64,000 nt of DNA, from contig NC_015557.1 of assembly GCF_000213785.1 (NCBI RefSeq), positions 1,468,664 through 1,532,663 on the forward strand. Direction: 5' to 3'. Both the position numbers and the translations under genes were made by a program. The stretch is from Hydrogenobaculum sp. 3684. GTDB lineage: Bacteria > Aquificota > Aquificia > Aquificales > Aquificaceae. The notes beneath the pieces are model-generated. The model was not told where the DNA came from, did not search any database, and saw nothing but the letters and a program-made list of their open reading frames with translations. This document shows, piece after piece, positions 22,068 through 35,111 of the stretch (within the stretch, counting starts at the first letter, position 1; each line of letters starts with the position of its first letter).

Positions 22068-23603
22068 ATGAAGCTTTTACCAATAGGTATACAAACCTTT
22101 GAAAAAATAAGAAATAGCAACTATTACTATGTAGATAAAACAATGTTTGTTAAAAAATTAGAAAACGGTGGATATTACTTTCTATCTCGTCCCAGAAGAT
22201 TTGGAAAATCTCTTTTTCTTGATACCTTAAAAGAAGCTTTTTCTGGCAACAAAGAACTTTTTAAAGGGTTATATCTATATGATAATTGGGATTGGGATAA
22301 GAAATATCCTATTATAAAAATAAGCTTTGCAAGTGGAAATATAAGAACTTCAGATATTTTATTGGATCTAATGACATCTCAAGTAAATAGGATATCAGAA
22401 AAAGAACAGATAAACTTAAAAGAAAAGCGTCCAAGCCAAATGTTTTTAGAACTTATCCAAAAACTATACGAAAAATACAACCAACAAGTAGTAGTACTCA
22501 TAGATGAGTATGATAAACCAATATTAGATGCGATAGAGAATATAGAAGTAGCAAAAGAAAATAGAGAAATATTGAAAGATTTTTATTCGGTGTTAAAAGA
22601 TGCAGATCCTTATCTAAAACTTGTATTCCTAACAGGTGTATCAAGGTTTTCAAAAGTGTCAATATTTAGCGGTTTAAACCAGTTAAACGATATTACTATA
22701 GACCCAAGCTTTGCAACTGTTTGCGGTTATACCCAATCTGAGCTTGAAAATGTTTTTGAAGATAGATTGAAAGATTTTGATAAAGAGAAGATAAAAGAGT
22801 GGTATAACGGCTATAGTTGGCTTGGAGAGAGCGTTTACAATCCTTTTGATATATTGCTTTTGTTTGATAAGAAAATGTTTAAACCTTACTGGTTTGAAAC
22901 AGGAACACCCACATTCCTTATTAAGATGTTTATGAAAAATAAATACTATCTACCAGAACTTGAAGACCTTGAAGTAGGAGAAGAGATTTTATCAAACCTT
23001 GATGTGGATAATATAAGGATAGAAAATCTTTTGTTTCAAGCTGGTTATCTTACCATAAAAGAGTTTAAAACAAAAGGCAACAAAAACTTATATACACTAT
23101 CTTTTCCAAACCTTGAAGTAAAAATGAGTTTTAACGACTTTTTCTTAGGCTATGTGATAGAAAATATTTCTTTAAAAGATAAAACTGAAATAGGTCTAAT
23201 AGAGGCTTTTGAGAATAGACAAGTAGAAAAATTAAAAGACATCTTACATAGATTTTTTGCAAGCATTCCACATGATTGGTATAGGAAAAACGATATAGAT
23301 TCTTATGAGGGTTTTTATGCATCTATCGTATATGCACTTTTTAACGGAGCAGGGCTAAATGTAATAGCAGAAGATAACACAAACAAAGGCCAGATAGATC
23401 TTAGTGTCTTTAACCAAGACAGCGTTTATATAATAGAGTTTAAGGTAGTAGAGGACAAAGAGAAAGGAAATGCTTTAAAACAGATAAAAGATAAAAAGTA
23501 TTATGAGAAGTATATAGGCAAGTACCAAAAGATCTATCTAATAGGGATAGAGTTTAGCAAGAAAGATAAGAACATTGTGGGTTTTGAGTGGGAGAAGATA
23601 TAG
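22068..23603 (+). CDS. AAA-ATPase-like / PD-(D/E)XK nuclease protein (PF09820 + PF08011)
   Basis: Protein of 511 residues in a family abundant in Bacteroidetes and thermophiles but without settled function. The N-terminal ATPase-like part has LPIGIQTFEKIR, YYVDKT, the P-loop-like RPRRFGKSLFLDTL (about 45-58) and Walker B VVVLIDEYDKPI (about 142-153). The C-terminal restriction-endonuclease-like domain has NKGQIDLSVF and VYIIEFKV (about 440-465), supplying the D and E-x-K catalytic residues, so it is probably active. The gene stands alone, has its own leaderless-type promoter, and is bracketed by related repeats (21977-22033 and 23637-23747), which suggests it moved in as a unit. Confidence 0.85.
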   Translation: MKLLPIGIQTFEKIRNSNYYYVDKTMFVKKLENGGYYFLSRPRRFGKSLFLDTLKEAFSGNKELFKGLYLYDNWDWDKKYPIIKISFASGNIRTSDILLDLMTSQVNRISEKEQINLKEKRPSQMFLELIQKLYEKYNQQVVVLIDEYDKPILDAIENIEVAKENREILKDFYSVLKDADPYLKLVFLTGVSRFSKVSIFSGLNQLNDITIDPSFATVCGYTQSELENVFEDRLKDFDKEKIKEWYNGYSWLGESVYNPFDILLLFDKKMFKPYWFETGTPTFLIKMFMKNKYYLPELEDLEVGEEILSNLDVDNIRIENLLFQAGYLTIKEFKTKGNKNLYTLSFPNLEVKMSFNDFFLGYVIENISLKDKTEIGLIEAFENRQVEKLKDILHRFFASIPHDWYRKNDIDSYEGFYASIVYALFNGAGLNVIAEDNTNKGQIDLSVFNQDSVYIIEFKVVEDKEKGNALKQIKDKKYYEKYIGKYQKIYLIGIEFSKKDKNIVGFEWEKI

Positions 23604-23728: not shown

Positions 23729-23818
23729 TACAGCGGTTTTTTGATATGGTGATGGTTTTCATATTGTATTCATTATGTTTATGTTAATTTATGTTTAAGA
23801 TTATCTTTGGAGGTTTTT

Positions 23819-24928
23819 ATGAAAAACACTATACTTAGAAAAGGTAGTGTAGCTGTTGCTGTCTTAGGTATTGGAGCGCTTTTAAGCGCTTGTGGTGTAG
23901 GAGGTGGTTCAGGCTCTTCGTCTAGTTCTGGTAGTGGTTTTACTACAACAAGCGCTTACATCCAAGATGATGCTTCTAATTTTCCAAACGTAACAGTAGG
24001 TATATACAGTATATCTCTTGCTAATACTGGAGATGGTAATGCTTGCGTTTTGTTTAGTAGCTTTACTCCAGTTTATATAAATCTTGCTAGCTTATCGGGT
24101 ATTGCCCAGTATATAAGTACAACTGCCTGTCCGTCCGATAGTGCTTACAATAGGCTTGATATAGTTCTTTCAAATACAGTAAGTGTTATTGAACCAGTTA
24201 CTTATAGCTCTACTATGTGTACACTCACTTCTTACAATCCAAATGCTAATTCAAATGTTACACTGCCAAATACTGTAAACTGTGGGAGTGGTTCTTCATG
24301 TACGCTTGATATGACTGGAAACATCGGTGCACTATCAGGTACAAACTCCTACGTAGATATTGATTTTGATTTAAAAGATAGTTATATGATTACATCTGGT
24401 ACTAACTGCCAATTTAGCTTTGCTACAAGGCCTATAACCATGGAAAATGAAAATGAGCCATCCAATGTTATGCTAAGGCTAAGAGGATATGTAAGCAACT
24501 TATCTACTACCGCTTTTAATATTGTAAAAGATGATAATTCTTATACTGTAGTGTATAGCTCGCTAACCTCAAGCGTATCTAGTCTTCTTCAAAGCGCTTC
24601 TTCTAATAGTTTAAAAGTGGCTGTAGTGTGCAGTAGCTTTACAAACAATATATGCAGCGCATCCCTTATAACTCAAACAGTAGGTGGTTTTTATAATAGC
24701 TATTATAATAGCTATACAAATGGCTATTTAACGTTGGCAAAAGAAGACAGCACTACTTTAGTCACAATTCCTCTTTTTAACCCTGTTATTTACCCACTTT
24801 CTATGACTTGGAGCTCATTTACAGTAGGCAGTAGCTATCTTCTTGATGTGAACACATGCAGCGCATCAAACTGTGCTTCTAATGTATACTTTACTGGAAA
24901 TATTATGCTAGAAGATGACAACAACTGA
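23819..24928 (+). CDS. Cys-rich secreted lipoprotein, DUF4382-like
   Basis: Exported lipoprotein of 369 residues with a basic N-region, hydrophobic helix and lipobox LSAC (lipidated Cys25), followed by a flexible Gly/Ser linker (about 26-45). The start is ATG 23819, placed by TTGGAGG 5 bases upstream. The mature part is Ser/Thr/Tyr/Asn-rich and beta-strand-like. It contains ten further cysteines, enough for five disulfides. The segment with YINLASLSG and YNRLDIVLS resembles the DUF4382 carbohydrate-binding-like fold, but this is tentative. It is a single-gene unit between repeat R2 and a terminator. Function unknown; possibly a surface-exposed substrate or adhesin. Confidence 0.75.
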   Translation: MKNTILRKGSVAVAVLGIGALLSACGVGGGSGSSSSSGSGFTTTSAYIQDDASNFPNVTVGIYSISLANTGDGNACVLFSSFTPVYINLASLSGIAQYISTTACPSDSAYNRLDIVLSNTVSVIEPVTYSSTMCTLTSYNPNANSNVTLPNTVNCGSGSSCTLDMTGNIGALSGTNSYVDIDFDLKDSYMITSGTNCQFSFATRPITMENENEPSNVMLRLRGYVSNLSTTAFNIVKDDNSYTVVYSSLTSSVSSLLQSASSNSLKVAVVCSSFTNNICSASLITQTVGGFYNSYYNSYTNGYLTLAKEDSTTLVTIPLFNPVIYPLSMTWSSFTVGSSYLLDVNTCSASNCASNVYFTGNIMLEDDNN

Positions 24929-26037: not shown

Positions 26038-28449
26038 TTATTTATTTAGTTTTTCCTCCATTTCTACGACGGCAAGCATAGTTTTAAATACAGAATCTGG
26101 GTTTAATGAGATACTATCTATACCCTTTTCCACTAAAAATTGGGCAAAATCAGGAAAATCGCTGGGAGCTTGTCCGCATATCCCTACTTTTCTACCGGTT
26201 TTCTTAGCTATATCTATGAGGTTTGCCACCATGATTTTTACAGCTTCGTTTCTTTCATCGTAAAGATGAGCCACCAAATCAGAGTCTCTATCTATGCCAA
26301 GGGTAAGCTGTGTAAGGTCATTGCTACCTATGGAAAATCCATCAAATATCTCTGCGTATTGTTCTGCCAATATAACGTTGCTTGGTATTTCTGCCATCAC
26401 ATATACTTCAAGACCATTTTCCCCTCTTACAAGCCCAAACTCTTTCATGGTTTCTAACACTTTTGCACCTTCTTGCGGTGTCCTACAGAAAGGTATCATA
26501 ACCTTTACGTTGTCAAGACCCATCTTGTTTCTAACTCTTAATATGGCTTTGCATTCCATACCAAAAGCCGTTTTAAACTTATCTGAATAATATCTGGATG
26601 CTCCCCTCCAACCTATCATCGGGTTTTCTTCTTTTGGCTCAAAGTACTTACCGCCCAAAAGACCTGCGTATTCGTTGCTTTTAAAATCAGAAAACCTCAC
26701 TATCACAGGATTTGGATAAAAAGCTGCAGCAATCTTTGCTATACCGTAAGAAAGCTTCTTTACGTAGTATTCTTCTTTGTTGTCATAGCCAAATGTTAGA
26801 TTTTCTATCTCTTTATAAAGCTCTGGGTCTTTTTCTTTTACGTAGTCTAAGTTTATAAGGGCTAAAGGATGTACTTTTATGTAATTTGCTATTATGAACT
26901 CTTCTCTGGCAAGACCAACACCGTCGTTTGGGATAGCTGCATATCTAAACACAGAGCTTGGATCTGCTACGTTTATCATGATCTTGGTTTTTGGCTTTTT
27001 GATATTGGATAAATCTATTTCTTTTGTCTCAAAATCAAGTTCTTTATCGTATACGTAAGCAGTTTCTCCTTCAGCGCAAGAAAGTGTTACTTTCATACCG
27101 GTTTTCAGCACTTCCGTTGCTTTTTGAGTGCCTACAGCTGCTGGTACTCCAAATTCTCTTGCCACTATAGCAGCGTGGGCAGTTCTACCACCTCTGTTGG
27201 TGATGATACCAGCTGCTTTTTTCATAATAGGTTCCCAGTCTGGATCTGTTATGTCTGTGACCAATATATCCCCTTCTTTGAAATCTACAGCTTCTTTTAT
27301 ACTGTGAATTACTTTTACCGTGCCTTTTGCTATCTTATCGCCTACAGCTATACCGCTTAGTATTCTATGTGGGATCCTTTCTTCAAGAGGATCTTTTATT
27401 TCATATACAACGAGCTTATCTTGAGCACGTCTTGATTGGACTGTTTCTGGTCTTGCCTGGACTATGTAAAGTTGATTGTCGTTTCCGTCTTTAGCCCATT
27501 CTATATCCATTGGCTTTTTGTAGTGTTCTTCGATTTCTATACCCCATTTGGCAAGAGTTAATATCTCATCGTCGTTTAAAGCGTAAACTTTTTGCTCATT
27601 TTGAGGTACGTTTACTATCTTCACCCTATCAGACCCCACTCCATATACCATTTTTCTATCTTTTTTGCCAAGTTTTTTTTCTATAATGGCAGAAAAGCCT
27701 TTTTTTAGTGTTGGTTTAAAGACCATATATTCGTCTGGAGTTACCATACCTTGTACTATCATCTCTCCAAGACCGTATATAGCGTTTATAACTACCACGT
27801 CTTTAAACCCGCTTTCTGTGTCTATGGTAAACATAACACCAGATGCACCCAGATCTGAGCGTACCATCTTTTGTACACCCATCGATATAGCTATTTTAAA
27901 GTGATCAAAGCCGTGAGAATGTCTGTATGAGATAGCTCTATCTGTAAAAAGCGATGCAAAACCATTTTTTACTGCTACTAAGACATTTTGAGCTCCCACT
28001 ACGTTTAGGTAAGTTTCTTGTTGACCTGCAAAAGAGGCATCCGGCAAATCTTCAGCGGTGGCAGATGATCTTACAGCGACATCTACAGCATGTGTTTTAT
28101 ACATTTGTGATAATTTTTCGTAGGCTTTTATTATCTCATTTTCCAAGTCTTTTGGAAATTCTCCAGCCCTTATCATCTCTCTTACAGCATGCCCTTTTTT
28201 GGCAAGCTGCTCTAAGTTTGAAGGGTCTAAATCTTTTAATGTATCTTTTATCTTCTGTTCAAGGTTGTTGTGTTTTATAAAATATCTATAGGCTTCAGCA
28301 GTTACCACAAATCCATAAGGTACGTTTACCCCTTTTGGTTTTAGGTGTCTTATCATCTCCCCCAAAGATGCGTTTTTGCCACCTACATATCCTATATCAG
28401 AGATACCCACCTCATCCAAGAACACTACCAACTTACCTTCTAAACTCAT
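26038..28449 (-). CDS. ppsA: Phosphoenolpyruvate synthase
   Basis: Converts pyruvate and ATP to PEP, AMP and phosphate. In an autotroph using the reductive TCA cycle it would be the entry to gluconeogenesis. It has 803 residues in three parts: the N-terminal PEP/pyruvate-binding ATP-grasp domain (about 1-340, VGGKNASLGEM and AVRSSATAEDLP), the phosphohistidine swivel domain (GGRTAHAAIVAREFGVPA, catalytic His near 420), and the C-terminal TIM barrel (about 470-795) with GSNDLTQLTLGIDRD and the catalytic Cys in GICGQAPSD near 756. All key residues are present. A strong GGAGG lies 6 bases before the ATG. It follows the MopB-like gene by 17 bases. Confidence 0.96.
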   Translation of the reverse strand: MSLEGKLVVFLDEVGISDIGYVGGKNASLGEMIRHLKPKGVNVPYGFVVTAEAYRYFIKHNNLEQKIKDTLKDLDPSNLEQLAKKGHAVREMIRAGEFPKDLENEIIKAYEKLSQMYKTHAVDVAVRSSATAEDLPDASFAGQQETYLNVVGAQNVLVAVKNGFASLFTDRAISYRHSHGFDHFKIAISMGVQKMVRSDLGASGVMFTIDTESGFKDVVVINAIYGLGEMIVQGMVTPDEYMVFKPTLKKGFSAIIEKKLGKKDRKMVYGVGSDRVKIVNVPQNEQKVYALNDDEILTLAKWGIEIEEHYKKPMDIEWAKDGNDNQLYIVQARPETVQSRRAQDKLVVYEIKDPLEERIPHRILSGIAVGDKIAKGTVKVIHSIKEAVDFKEGDILVTDITDPDWEPIMKKAAGIITNRGGRTAHAAIVAREFGVPAAVGTQKATEVLKTGMKVTLSCAEGETAYVYDKELDFETKEIDLSNIKKPKTKIMINVADPSSVFRYAAIPNDGVGLAREEFIIANYIKVHPLALINLDYVKEKDPELYKEIENLTFGYDNKEEYYVKKLSYGIAKIAAAFYPNPVIVRFSDFKSNEYAGLLGGKYFEPKEENPMIGWRGASRYYSDKFKTAFGMECKAILRVRNKMGLDNVKVMIPFCRTPQEGAKVLETMKEFGLVRGENGLEVYVMAEIPSNVILAEQYAEIFDGFSIGSNDLTQLTLGIDRDSDLVAHLYDERNEAVKIMVANLIDIAKKTGRKVGICGQAPSDFPDFAQFLVEKGIDSISLNPDSVFKTMLAVVEMEEKLNK

Positions 28450-28466: not shown

Positions 28467-29906
28467 TTATAACTTCCTATATCTTAACACGCTCACAAAA
28501 GTTTTGTCAATAGCCAGCACCCCTGGTCTTACACCTTCGTAGAAAGGTTGATATTCATCAAAGCCATCTGAGATGAAAAATGTATGTTCTGGTATGTTGG
28601 CAGATATTTTTACCTTTAAGACTGCTTTTCCATACTCAGTGGTTATCTCTAAAAGCTCTCCGTCGGTTATATCTATACTATCGGCAAGGGTTTTGTTTAT
28701 ATATACGTATTGGTTTGGTTCTATCTCGTGAAGCCATCTTGAGTAATGCCCAATTTCATCTACTACACTATGCCCTATAAAAAGGGTATAACCTTTTAAG
28801 GTTATAGTTTCTTGTTTTGGGCTTTTAGTATGAGATATATTTTTATCCACTTGTGGTATTATATCAAGAAGCGTATAGGCGTTTTCATTTTCAAAAAGCT
28901 TTTTGGAATCTACTTCTAAAAACGCTGTTTTTTTGGTAAAATCCATCTCTATAAAAAACTTTCTTGGAAGATAGTATCTTGATAAATTTGCGCTCATGTT
29001 TGCCATATGAGAGATGGTTATTACATCTTTTTTAGAAAGACTGTCTAATTTGCCATCCGGTATATATCTAAACATATCCCCTAAGTTTACAATAACCTCA
29101 TGTTTATCTATTCCTTCTATTCCCTTTACAGGCCAATGGGTTATGTTGCCGGTAATGATATAATCTATGTTATGTTTTTCTTTCATATATTTTAAAAATC
29201 CCAAAACAAAATCTCTATTTATCCTAATATAGCTGTCTTCTATTATTATAAGAGCATCGCTTAGTTTTGTTGAAAAAAGCGAAAACTTGTTTATAAATTC
29301 ATCTTCGTGATATCCCTTTTCAAAAGCATTTTTTATATTTTCTAAAAAGCTTAAAAACTCTGAAGGCGGTATAAGTTTTTTGTAGTTTGCTTTAAAACTC
29401 ATGTTTGTATAAATAGCACCAGCGCTAAAGAGCTTTGCACCTTTTTGTTTAGCGTCTATGATCCATCTTGATAGCATCACATCGTAATAAGAGGGTTCTG
29501 ATATGTTTAATATGACTTTTTTGTCTGGTATATGTTCTATTTCTATGGTTTTTGGCTTTTCTACGTAAAGCATGTTTGAATATATATTTTCTGTAAAAGA
29601 AAAAGCCCTTTGAAGCTCTTCCTCTGTGCAAAATCTATCTACGTATATAGCTGTATCTTTATTTGTTATGTCTATATCAATAGCTTTTGACTCTTTTAGC
29701 CTAAACTCTGAGAAAGGAAGTTCTTGGACAAGCGCTATACCTTTTGTGCAGAAGCTTCCCATCCCAAGTCTGTCTGATGGATGCCCTGTTACATCTATTA
29801 TTTGATTATCTTTTATATAAGCTATAAACTTACAACCGCAGTTACAACCTATGCAATGACCTATTAGCTCTTTATCAAAGTTTTTTGAACTAAGATGCTC
29901 TATCAA
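28467..29906 (-). CDS. Stand-alone molybdopterin-oxidoreductase-like protein
   Basis: Protein of 479 residues resembling the ends of a Mo/W-bisPGD enzyme (MopB superfamily, FwdB/FdhA-like). The N-terminus has Cys18, Cys21 and Cys25 (with an extra Cys23) and a fourth Cys in SFCTKG, a C-x2-C-x3-C-xn-C iron-sulfur site. The C-terminal 110 residues resemble the dinucleotide-binding beta barrel (TDGELLEITTEYGKAVLKVKI). The middle is short, and I cannot see a Cys/Sec ligand or the usual pterin-binding motifs, so catalysis is doubtful. It sits between fabI (8 bases) and ppsA (17 bases) with no partner subunits nearby. It may be a degenerate electron-transfer or scaffold protein. Confidence 0.6.
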   Translation of the reverse strand: MIEHLSSKNFDKELIGHCIGCNCGCKFIAYIKDNQIIDVTGHPSDRLGMGSFCTKGIALVQELPFSEFRLKESKAIDIDITNKDTAIYVDRFCTEEELQRAFSFTENIYSNMLYVEKPKTIEIEHIPDKKVILNISEPSYYDVMLSRWIIDAKQKGAKLFSAGAIYTNMSFKANYKKLIPPSEFLSFLENIKNAFEKGYHEDEFINKFSLFSTKLSDALIIIEDSYIRINRDFVLGFLKYMKEKHNIDYIITGNITHWPVKGIEGIDKHEVIVNLGDMFRYIPDGKLDSLSKKDVITISHMANMSANLSRYYLPRKFFIEMDFTKKTAFLEVDSKKLFENENAYTLLDIIPQVDKNISHTKSPKQETITLKGYTLFIGHSVVDEIGHYSRWLHEIEPNQYVYINKTLADSIDITDGELLEITTEYGKAVLKVKISANIPEHTFFISDGFDEYQPFYEGVRPGVLAIDKTFVSVLRYRKL

Positions 29907-29914
29907 TGAAACTT

Positions 29915-30697
29915 TTACTCCTCTTCTTTATCAGAAACACCCATTATACTATAACCACTATCTACATATATGGTTTGACCTGTGATGCCCCTTGCCCATT
30001 CACTACATAAGAATGCAGCTGTATCACCTACTTCTTCTATGGTGACATGTCTTCCAAGGGGGCTTACTTTAACGGTGTGCTCCATCAGTATATGAAAACC
30101 AGTTATGCTATATGCAGATAGTGTTTTGATGGGACCTGCTGATATGCAATTTACCCTTTGATTTTTCTTTGCTACATCAAAAGCCAAATACCTTGTGGCG
30201 CTTTCTAAAGCTGCTTTTGCTATACCCATAACGTTGTAATGAGGTACTACCTTTTGGGCTCCGTAGTAAGAAAGCGTCAAAAACGCCCCTTCTTCGTTCA
30301 TGATGTTTGAGAATGCCCTAACTACAGCTATGAACGAATAAACGGATATATCCATGGCTATGTTAAAACCAGACCTTGTGGTATCTATAACACCATTTTT
30401 AAACTCATCTTTTGGAGCATAGGCTATAGAATGCACTACTATGTCTATGTTGTTCCAAGCTTCTTTTATGTTGCTTGCTAGGTTTTCTATGTCTTGGTCT
30501 TTGGATACATCGCATTCAAAAACAAGCTCAGTGCCAAGCTCCTGGGCTATAGGCATCACTCTTTTTTTCACAGATTCACCGGCGTAGCTTATAGCTATAT
30601 CAGCTCCTTCTCTTTTGAAGCTTTTAGCTATACCATAGGCTATACTCTTATCGTTTGCTAAACCCATTATAAGAGCTTTTTTACCTTTTAATATCAT
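29915..30697 (-). CDS. fabI: Enoyl-[acyl-carrier-protein] reductase (NADH)
   Basis: Final reductase of each fatty-acid elongation cycle, 260 residues. It is an atypical short-chain dehydrogenase with MGLANDKSIAYGIAK (about 11-25, NADH binding), SIAYAP (about 92), and the FabI-specific YYGAQKVVPHYN followed by GIAKAALES, where Tyr-x6-Lys is the catalytic pair. GPIKTLSAYSI is the mobile substrate-binding loop, and the C-terminus GQTIYVDSGYSIMG is typical. It lies 16 bases after the aldolase gene with AGGAG before the ATG. Confidence 0.96.
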   Translation of the reverse strand: MILKGKKALIMGLANDKSIAYGIAKSFKREGADIAISYAGESVKKRVMPIAQELGTELVFECDVSKDQDIENLASNIKEAWNNIDIVVHSIAYAPKDEFKNGVIDTTRSGFNIAMDISVYSFIAVVRAFSNIMNEEGAFLTLSYYGAQKVVPHYNVMGIAKAALESATRYLAFDVAKKNQRVNCISAGPIKTLSAYSITGFHILMEHTVKVSPLGRHVTIEEVGDTAAFLCSEWARGITGQTIYVDSGYSIMGVSDKEEE

Positions 30698-34366: not shown

Positions 34367-34400
34367 TTTTGCCTCCAAAACGCCTTTACGTATATGATCA

Positions 34401-34409
34401 TGCTATACT
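34401..34409 (+). promoter_or_regulatory. Extended -10 (TGCTATACT) for MNT gene
   Basis: TGCTATACT ends 13 bases before ATG 34423; an alternative TATTAT at 34409-34414 ends 8 bases before it. Either predicts an absent or very short leader. It abuts the divergent glyQ promoter. Confidence 0.45.
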
Positions 34410-34418
34410 ATTATACCA
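34410..34418 (-). promoter_or_regulatory. Extended -10 promoter for glyQ operon
   Basis: The minus strand reads TGGTATAAT, a perfect extended -10, about 43 bases before ATG 34366. It is back to back with the MNT promoter. Confidence 0.5.
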
Positions 34419-34422
34419 GTTT

Positions 34423-34713
34423 ATGGCTTTTAAGATAAAAACTATAGAAGATTTAAAAGAGTTTTTAAAAGATTATTTCAAAGATAAGAATGTAAAAATT
34501 TATCTGTTTGGTTCTAGGGCTTATGGAAACAATTCAGATTTTTCCGATGTTGATATAGCTATTGACACAGAAGAGGATATAACAGAGTGTTTGACTTTGT
34601 TAAGATATATAATAGAAGAAAGCACGCTTCCTTACAAGGTGGATTTTGTGGATTTAAAGATGGCACCTCATCTTAAACCTATAGTTTACGAAAAAGGACA
34701 AAGATGGCTTTAG
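34423..34713 (+). CDS. MNT-type nucleotidyltransferase (MntA-like antitoxin)
   Basis: Minimal nucleotidyltransferase of 96 residues with KIYLFGSRAYGNNSDFSDVD (GSRxxG then DVDIAID), the metal-binding motif of the pol-beta superfamily. In MntA/HepT modules this protein AMPylates and neutralises the HEPN partner. The start is ATG 34423 (MAFKIKTIEDL); an upstream in-frame ATG at 34369 would run through both promoters and is rejected. It overlaps the HEPN gene by 10 bases. Toxin-antitoxin function is inferred from the pair; related HI0073/HI0074 pairs were described before any activity was known. Confidence 0.85.
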   Translation: MAFKIKTIEDLKEFLKDYFKDKNVKIYLFGSRAYGNNSDFSDVDIAIDTEEDITECLTLLRYIIEESTLPYKVDFVDLKMAPHLKPIVYEKGQRWL

Positions 34714-35111
34714 ATAGATTGTTGTCAGATTTAAAAAATGCGTTTTCAAGGTTAAAAGAGTCCTACGATAAAACTATAAACTCTCAAAATACCGCCGATT
34801 ATTCGTTTTTCAGAGATTCTACTATACAGCGGTTTGAGTTTACCATAGAGATTTTATGGAAAACTGTTAAAGAGTTTTTAAAATTAAAAGAAGGAATAGA
34901 ATGCAGATCTCCAAAATCTTGTATAAGAGATTTTTTCGGGTCTGGTTATCTAAGTTCTCAGGATGTTGTTACACTTTTAGAGGCAATAGACGATCGAAAT
35001 CTTACATCTCACACTTATCACGAAGAGGTTGCCGATAAAATTTTTCAAAATATTAAGAAATATCTACCTGTTATAAAAAGCGTAATAAATGAGATAGAAA
35101 AGAATATTTAA
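34704..35111 (+). CDS. HEPN-type partner (HI0074 / HepT-like)
   Basis: All-helical protein of 135 residues from the nucleotidyltransferase substrate-binding family (PF08780-like). The segment DDRNLTSHTYHE (about 94-105) contains R-x4-H-x-Y, the motif that in characterised HepT toxins provides the RNase residues and the Tyr that MntA polyAMPylates. CRSPKSCIRDFF (about 70-81) is also family-typical. It is translated from within the end of the nucleotidyltransferase gene, as expected for a balanced two-component module. It is adjacent (1 base) to the converging folC stop. Confidence 0.85.
   Translation: MALDRLLSDLKNAFSRLKESYDKTINSQNTADYSFFRDSTIQRFEFTIEILWKTVKEFLKLKEGIECRSPKSCIRDFFGSGYLSSQDVVTLLEAIDDRNLTSHTYHEEVADKIFQNIKKYLPVIKSVINEIEKNI

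Follow-up and report, generated by a model that had tools for sequence, protein, structure and literature searches.

A MopB-type protein of the Aquificaceae with a conserved four-cysteine cluster motif and an eroded cofactor site

Directly between fabI and a ppsA-type gene of Hydrogenobaculum sp. 3684 lies a gene for a short relative of the molybdopterin oxidoreductases. A sequence-only reading of the locus regarded the product as stand-alone and probably degenerate, and this raises the question of whether the protein is a molybdoenzyme, the relic of one or a protein with a different task. Our window is the whole stretch of DNA that was analysed (64,000 nt of contig NC_015557.1), and we use ‘T’ for the 479-aa window protein and its family. 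The open reading frame runs on the minus strand from 29906 to 28467, opposite a plus strand full of stops; the earlier coordinates and length were right, and the strand, which had not been given, is minus. The tight packing described for fabI, T and ppsA was also found, with intervals of 8 and 17 bases:

28467..29906, minus strand: gene T, a 479-aa MopB-type protein probably without Mo cofactor; TTG start; found in 61 of 64 Aquificaceae genomes
29918..29923, minus strand: GAGGAG, a ribosome-binding-like site at the fabI end, 11 bases before the TTG start (sequence)
29915..30697, minus strand: fabI (enoyl-ACP reductase), the upstream neighbour, 8 bases away (Pfam of neighbours)
26038..28449, minus strand: ppsA/PPDK-type PEP synthase, the downstream neighbour, 17 bases away (Pfam of neighbours)

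Beyond fabI and ppsA, one flank carries a DeoC-family aldolase gene together with glyS and glyQ, and the opposite flank a DHH phosphoesterase gene. No redox partner is present among the nine window neighbours typed by Pfam, in keeping with the earlier statement that partner subunits are missing nearby; ‘stand-alone’ is thus apt in the sense of having no gene neighbour, not as a statement on protein partners. Two overlapping genes (34369-35111, plus strand), oriented against glyQ and sharing 10 bases with its start, encode a nucleotidyltransferase (Polbeta/NTP_transf_2) and an NTase_sub_bind/HepT-like protein, and form a toxin–antitoxin-like pair of the MNT-HEPN type.

Pfam recognizes the two ends of the window protein, Molybdop_Fe4S4 at residues 17-61 (25.8 bits against a cut-off of 22.7) and Molydop_binding at residues 390-451 (36.3 bits against 26.8), and gives nothing between them, the middle domain PF00384 being unmatched. 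Scanning 55 members of the family at E 0.01 returned the Fe4S4 domain in 54, the C-terminal domain in 23 and PF00384 in 10. The earlier failure to see the middle pterin motifs is borne out for the window protein, in which PF00384 is unmatched and most of the motifs are lost. No signal peptide is evident by eye. The family alignment comprises 55 distinct full-length proteins (474-564 aa), each from a different genome; the six genomes with partial reading frames only were left out, as were repeat copies of a locus. The parts of the protein on which the argument turns are as follows:

29748..29855, minus strand: [4Fe-4S] ligand region, residues 18-53, with C18, C21, (C23), C25 and C53 (family alignment)
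29742-29744, minus strand: codon of K55, after the ligand region (Lys in 52 of 55 members)
29361..29531, minus strand: residues 126-182, a remnant of the Mo-enzyme domain with the G-x-N...H-P and D-P-R motifs (profile alignments and position counts)
28521..28790, minus strand: C-terminal barrel, residues 373-462, containing Molydop_binding at 390-451 (Pfam and family alignment)

The cluster motif of T is CX2CX3CX27C, and its four ligands are cysteine in all 55 members. The additional cysteine, C23, sits between two ligands (CxxCxCxC) and is present in 50 of 55 members; the exceptions (three Ser, one Ala and one Val) all belong to genus g2 and keep the rest of the site. Position 55 is Lys in 52 members and Arg in three. 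Both the four-cysteine site with its extra cysteine and the dinucleotide-binding-like C-terminal barrel, which had been picked out from the sequence, are confirmed here, and we infer from the site that T really holds a [4Fe-4S] cluster. Residues 126-182 read SEPSYYDVM / SAGAIYT in the window protein and EAEPVFSEVM / SSRYET in the family consensus; just ahead of them, the Mo-ligand region is missing in the profile alignments. T has C-terminal motifs of its own, GH[WY]xxWxHExExxQ and EExQPFxxG, with H387, W388 (Tyr in Hydrogenobaculum), W391, H393, E396 and Q399 nearly invariant. In all, 21 columns are invariant among the 55 members, and R147, D151, K172, Y249, E451, Q453 and P454, which are among them, do not coincide with any position conserved in Mo enzymes. 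An AlphaFold2 model built from three rows (the window protein, L031 and L032) reached a pLDDT of 30, and the fold is known from sequence only.

Profile comparison places T within the MopB fold, that is, among relatives of the DMSO reductase superfamily. Against alignments of Mo enzymes, an hhalign-type comparison covered 529-540 of 554 profile columns at 99.5-99.6% probability, with a lenient setting (mact 0.01) under which longer alignments are favoured, and 460 columns aligned with the assimilatory nitrate reductases of Aquificaceae at 97.8%. The comparison with FdhF, NuoG and FwdB that had been proposed as a check gave nearly full-length alignment with the Mo enzymes and a weak match with FwdB. 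T is also short, at 474-564 aa versus 656-1029 aa in 13 Mo enzymes compared. In the alignment with these 13 enzymes, and in FdhF numbering, T keeps C8, C11, C15, C42 and K44, has gaps at R138, C/U140 and G174, replaces N176, H181 and P182, carries Gly at N662, and has no counterpart of the stretch 303-381 with R333 and Q335. This stretch aligns unstably, as position 334 is deleted with the 13 enzymes and is matched and kept when 12 are used. At 71 positions, 11 or more of the 13 enzymes agree; the majority of T sequences keep 14 of these, and 27 are deleted.

As single positions shift between alignments, the totals carry more weight than any one residue, and they were calibrated with a control in which the Mo set was rebuilt without one enzyme family (12 enzymes, 55 conserved positions, 50 of them outside the cluster ligands and the lysine). 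T retains 8 of these 50 positions and NuoG retains 10, with or without the E. coli sequence. The held-out Mo groups, classed as Mo enzymes by homology and by a Cys at position 140, retain 32 (SoeA-like, six sequences), 25 (L117) and 27 (L118). Each of the three held-out groups retains the metal-ligand position 140 itself, which both T and NuoG fail to keep, whereas the lysine beside the cluster is kept in T and NuoG and absent from two of the three held-out groups. By this measure, erosion of the cofactor site has gone as far in T as in a protein known to be cofactor-free. T has no Mo/W ligand recognizable in its sequence, and the long segment bearing the motifs for the second pterin, together with most of the other pterin and dinucleotide motifs, is lost or replaced; the earlier description of a MopB-type protein with a four-cysteine site and without a Mo/W ligand thus stands up to controls (8 of 50 versus 25-32 of 50). 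On these counts, T has very probably lost the Mo/W-bisPGD cofactor.

Could T be a shortened oxidoreductase that still binds pterin, either as a single MGD or as bisPGD without a protein ligand to the metal? Mo enzymes of the latter kind exist, arsenite oxidase being an example. The fold signature, the cluster site and the nearby lysine are kept, Molydop_binding scores above its cut-off and PF00384 is found in 10 of 55 members. The cofactor is also available to the cell, since the pterin-synthesis protein MoaC is encoded in 55 of 64 Aquificaceae genomes (41 of 42 high-quality ones), and for the same reason an absence of cofactor synthesis cannot serve as a discriminating test. We nevertheless consider a pterin-binding T unlikely: the retained positions are as few as in NuoG and far from the range of the held-out Mo enzymes, and in the 13-enzyme alignment position 140 falls in a gap and FdhF 303-381, a stretch that is unstable with 12 enzymes, is without counterpart.

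The likeness to NuoG raises the question of whether T belongs to that lineage. In each of 11 genomes searched there is a separate PF10588 (NuoG-type) match, in a frame of 622-643 aa in 10 genomes and cut by the record end in G036; in the window genome, the NuoG-type gene encodes 622 aa and has a cluster motif of its own. The idea that T is the missing part of a split complex I subunit was dropped because every one of the 11 genomes has its own NuoG. The NuoG of Aquificaceae is itself short, 619-636 aa in five examples (L075, L129-L133) against 908 in E. coli, and keeps an N7-type cluster motif. T has none of the N-terminal domains of NuoG (NADH-G_4Fe-4S_3, ferredoxin-like) in Pfam searches to E 10. 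With hhalign, T matches NuoG alone at 22% probability and at 89% when E. coli NuoG is added, compared with 97.8% for the nitrate reductases, and the PDB profile scores of T are 61 bits for F420-dependent formate dehydrogenase (FDH), 24 bits for Nqo3 and at most 17 bits for FwdB.

Four trees were built, the first with 17 of the 55 T members and the others with 14 (L051, L029 and L026 dropped); the second was also built without E. coli NuoG and without the one SoeA-like row. In all four, T forms one clade (100/99 or better), and in none is it joined to NuoG. NuoG groups with FDH in two trees (99/95, 99/98) and is unplaced in the other two, whereas T groups with enzymes that we take to be SoeA/PsrA-like in the three trees holding them (98/96, 99/98, 97/95), a join that drew a long-branch warning in the first tree. 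Outcomes vary with the rows and columns kept, and approximately unbiased (AU) tests of T and NuoG as one clade gave p 0.24 and 0.23 with broader columns and 0.013 with core columns. Because the trees separate T from NuoG and one AU test in three rejects their union, an independent loss of the cofactor in T is favoured, not proven. The phrase ‘as in the NuoG lineage’ in the sequence-only reading accordingly works as an analogy (8 and 10 of 50 positions) and is not supported as descent, given the four trees and the separate NuoG genes. Derivation from a duplicated and trimmed complex I subunit, with the cofactor lost in the same event, would account for the same kind of cluster motif and the similar number of lost positions, and the two AU tests on broader columns leave a common branch unrejected. 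The absence of a joint clade from every tree, the core-column AU test, the weaker hhalign and Nqo3 scores and the missing N-terminal domains make this origin rather improbable in our judgement.

Within the Aquificota, T is confined to one family. A phyletic profile in Aquificota had been proposed as a check, and the T profile was searched in 136 genomes of the phylum at a threshold of E 1e-12. It matched in 61 genomes, all among the 64 Aquificaceae, a family represented by 11 genera, and in none of the 72 Aquificota genomes from outside the family; a single-protein search at 1e-5 returned the same 61. The three Aquificaceae without a match (G022, G041, G047) have fragmented genomes with a completeness of 65-90%. 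All of the 61 carry a single T gene, which in some is cut by contig ends or split over them. The additional, weaker matches (E 1e-12 to 1e-14), which cover profile positions 15-122, come from the Fe4S4 domains of other enzymes, most of them larger. Short peptides of window T searched against genome contigs found two loci, both Hydrogenobaculum; a plasmid search yielded two partial matches to ordinary oxidoreductases, and viral contigs contained no relatives of T. T is thus part of the single-copy core of the Aquificaceae.

The gene is also under strong purifying selection: among five Hydrogenobaculum sequences, dN/dS (NG86) is 0.10-0.18 for every one of the 10 pairs, and dS reaches about 1.5 or more in the four that include L005. 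‘Degenerate’ therefore holds for the cofactor site and not for the gene. The large internal deletions relative to Mo enzymes are what a decaying molybdoenzyme remnant might display, yet the low dN/dS, the occurrence of one gene in 61 of 64 genomes and 11 genera, and the 21 invariant columns among 55 members refute decay, to which we give practically no credence.

If T is maintained, which genes does it work with? We compared 41 loci of more than 5.5 kb from 40 genomes, choosing non-overlapping reading frames greedily and identifying each group of neighbours by Pfam of one representative. Downstream of T, a CinA-domain gene followed by an LpxA-type gene is found at 24 of 41 loci and an S30AE/HPF gene at eight. 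Directly upstream are fabI (10 of 41), MazE-like genes (six), DegT-type aminotransferase genes (five), pgk (four) and sucC-type genes (four); a further 15 direct neighbours fall in groups of fewer than three, where most translations were inspected and Pfam was run on one. The recurrent neighbours are housekeeping genes that vary between genera. The small MazE-antitoxin-type gene (L036:6396-6653, minus strand, and five similar loci) lies next upstream of T on the opposite strand, always in genus g6.

Searches of the 41 loci with Mo-enzyme and NuoG sequences found no second MopB gene near T, and no CxxCxxCxxxC protein is encoded within four reading frames of it, in both cases with the exception of locus L057 (genome G052). 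There, T is divergent from a selenocysteine FDH operon, in which the catalytic subunit (L057:3102-6209, minus strand), with one in-frame TGA, is followed by FeS and cytochrome-type subunits. As L057 is the sole locus of the 41 with such genes, the adjacency to FDH was taken as chance, and any constant partner of T would have to be encoded elsewhere.

Our proposal is that T is a MopB-fold protein, probably cytosolic, from which the Mo/W-bisPGD cofactor would be gone and in which the N-terminal [4Fe-4S] cluster would be kept. It may serve for electron transfer, as a scaffold or for both, docking as a subunit with a partner whose gene lies elsewhere; NuoG/Nqo3, which carries cluster N7, and FhcB, a scaffold, could be models for such a part. 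The old cofactor cleft may now bind a protein or a small ligand, and the invariant residues of T would line this cleft, as read from the alignment only. Conservation in nearly every Aquificaceae genome makes a new electron-handling or scaffolding job most likely. The lysine shared by T and NuoG leans towards electron transfer and carries small weight, since two of the three held-out Mo groups do without it. Taken as a whole, this proposal is the explanation we judge best, with somewhat better than even confidence, and a similar, modestly favourable view applies to the electron-transfer/scaffold role itself.

Two narrower roles bear on this proposal. A pure scaffold or assembly factor resembling FhcB, in which the cluster would be structural only, is consistent with the 40 of 41 loci that have no redox partner nearby, and the invariant residues particular to T might offer a surface for docking. 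The ligands present in 55 of 55 members and the adjacent Lys or Arg (52 and three members) tell against it, as does FhcB itself, which is not known to have a cluster whereas T keeps the cluster site; such a role is possible and seems to us improbable. C23 suggests another role: with the extra cysteine the cluster would be able to change state, and T would sense redox conditions or oxygen. In [4Fe-3S] hydrogenases, an additional cysteine near the cluster is known as an adaptation to oxygen, the hosts of T live with low oxygen, and the residue lies between two ligands in 50 of 55 members. That C23 is replaced by Ser, Ala or Val in five members of genus g2 with an otherwise intact site, and that Pfam finds no DNA-binding or effector domain in window T, leaves a sensor very doubtful.

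How does T compare with MopB proteins already described? Cytoplasmic FDH, assimilatory nitrate reductase and the SoeA/PsrA-like Mo/W-bisPGD enzymes are homologous to T over nearly the full length and share the N-terminal site, whereas T is shorter and is without the Cys/Sec ligand and most cofactor motifs. The C-terminal MopB part of NuoG/Nqo3, with cluster N7, resembles T in its homology, its similar four-cysteine motif and its equal loss of the cofactor site; unlike T, NuoG has N-terminal domains with further clusters and a seat in complex I. A molybdenum survey leaves out NuoG as a known Mo-independent homologue (PMC6147048, in the part of the text available). FhcB of the formyltransferase/hydrolase complex is described, in the accessible part of a MopB survey, as a cytoplasmic, cofactor-free MopB protein with a scaffold role (PMC10100899). 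It is related to FwdB, whose chains match T only weakly: the four FwdB chains among the 44 PDB matches of T have E values of 0.015 to 5.3, below FDH, Nap and Nqo3, and no chain named FhcB is among the 44. ActB of alternative complex III is periplasmic and likewise cofactor-free; by the same portion of that survey, it is joined in one chain to an electron-transfer subunit and its clusters are altered (PMC10100899). T, by contrast, is a single short polypeptide. StnC contains an FdhF-like domain that is called catalytically inactive and carries Fe–S clusters (PMC10482914, as far as the text was accessible). Unlike T, this domain sits in a 1172-aa subunit of a bifurcating complex; PDB chain 8oh5_C, which from its 1172-aa length appears to be StnC, scores 19.8 bits with the T profile.

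The MopB survey counts, in its available text, three independent losses of the cofactor (Nqo3, ActB and FhcB), all tied to aerobic metabolism, and the word stem ‘Aquific’ is absent from that text (PMC10100899). A search of the literature by title and start of abstract, with most subscription papers outside its scope, found no description of the T family. On its sequence features, T is a candidate for a fourth loss of the cofactor beyond these three. In the fuller form of this idea, to which we would give an even chance, T is a fourth independent cofactor-free MopB lineage that would have arisen once, in the ancestor of the Aquificaceae, from a SoeA/PsrA- or FDH-like molybdoenzyme, and would have been fixed in the core genome as one copy; its emptied cleft would have become a new conserved binding site beside the [4Fe-4S] cluster, and T would be an electron-transfer module so far unrecognised. 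The Aquificaceae live in hot springs as chemolithoautotrophs with little use of oxygen, and the family is often considered to branch deeply. A fourth loss, if true, would offer a test of whether new electron-transfer subunits arise repeatedly by loss of Mo with the cluster kept. Automatic annotation may call T a molybdopterin oxidoreductase, and proof would be needed before it is counted as a molybdoenzyme.

Two further genes of the window lie on the plus strand beyond ppsA. The first (22068-23603) encodes a 511-aa protein with AAA-ATPase_like and PDDEXK_9 domains, a family that is often mobile in bacteria. The second (23807-24928) encodes a DUF4382-type, Ser/Gly-rich putative lipoprotein; a 361-aa protein that resembles it by eye is encoded at L064:9559-10644, the third gene downstream of T at that locus.
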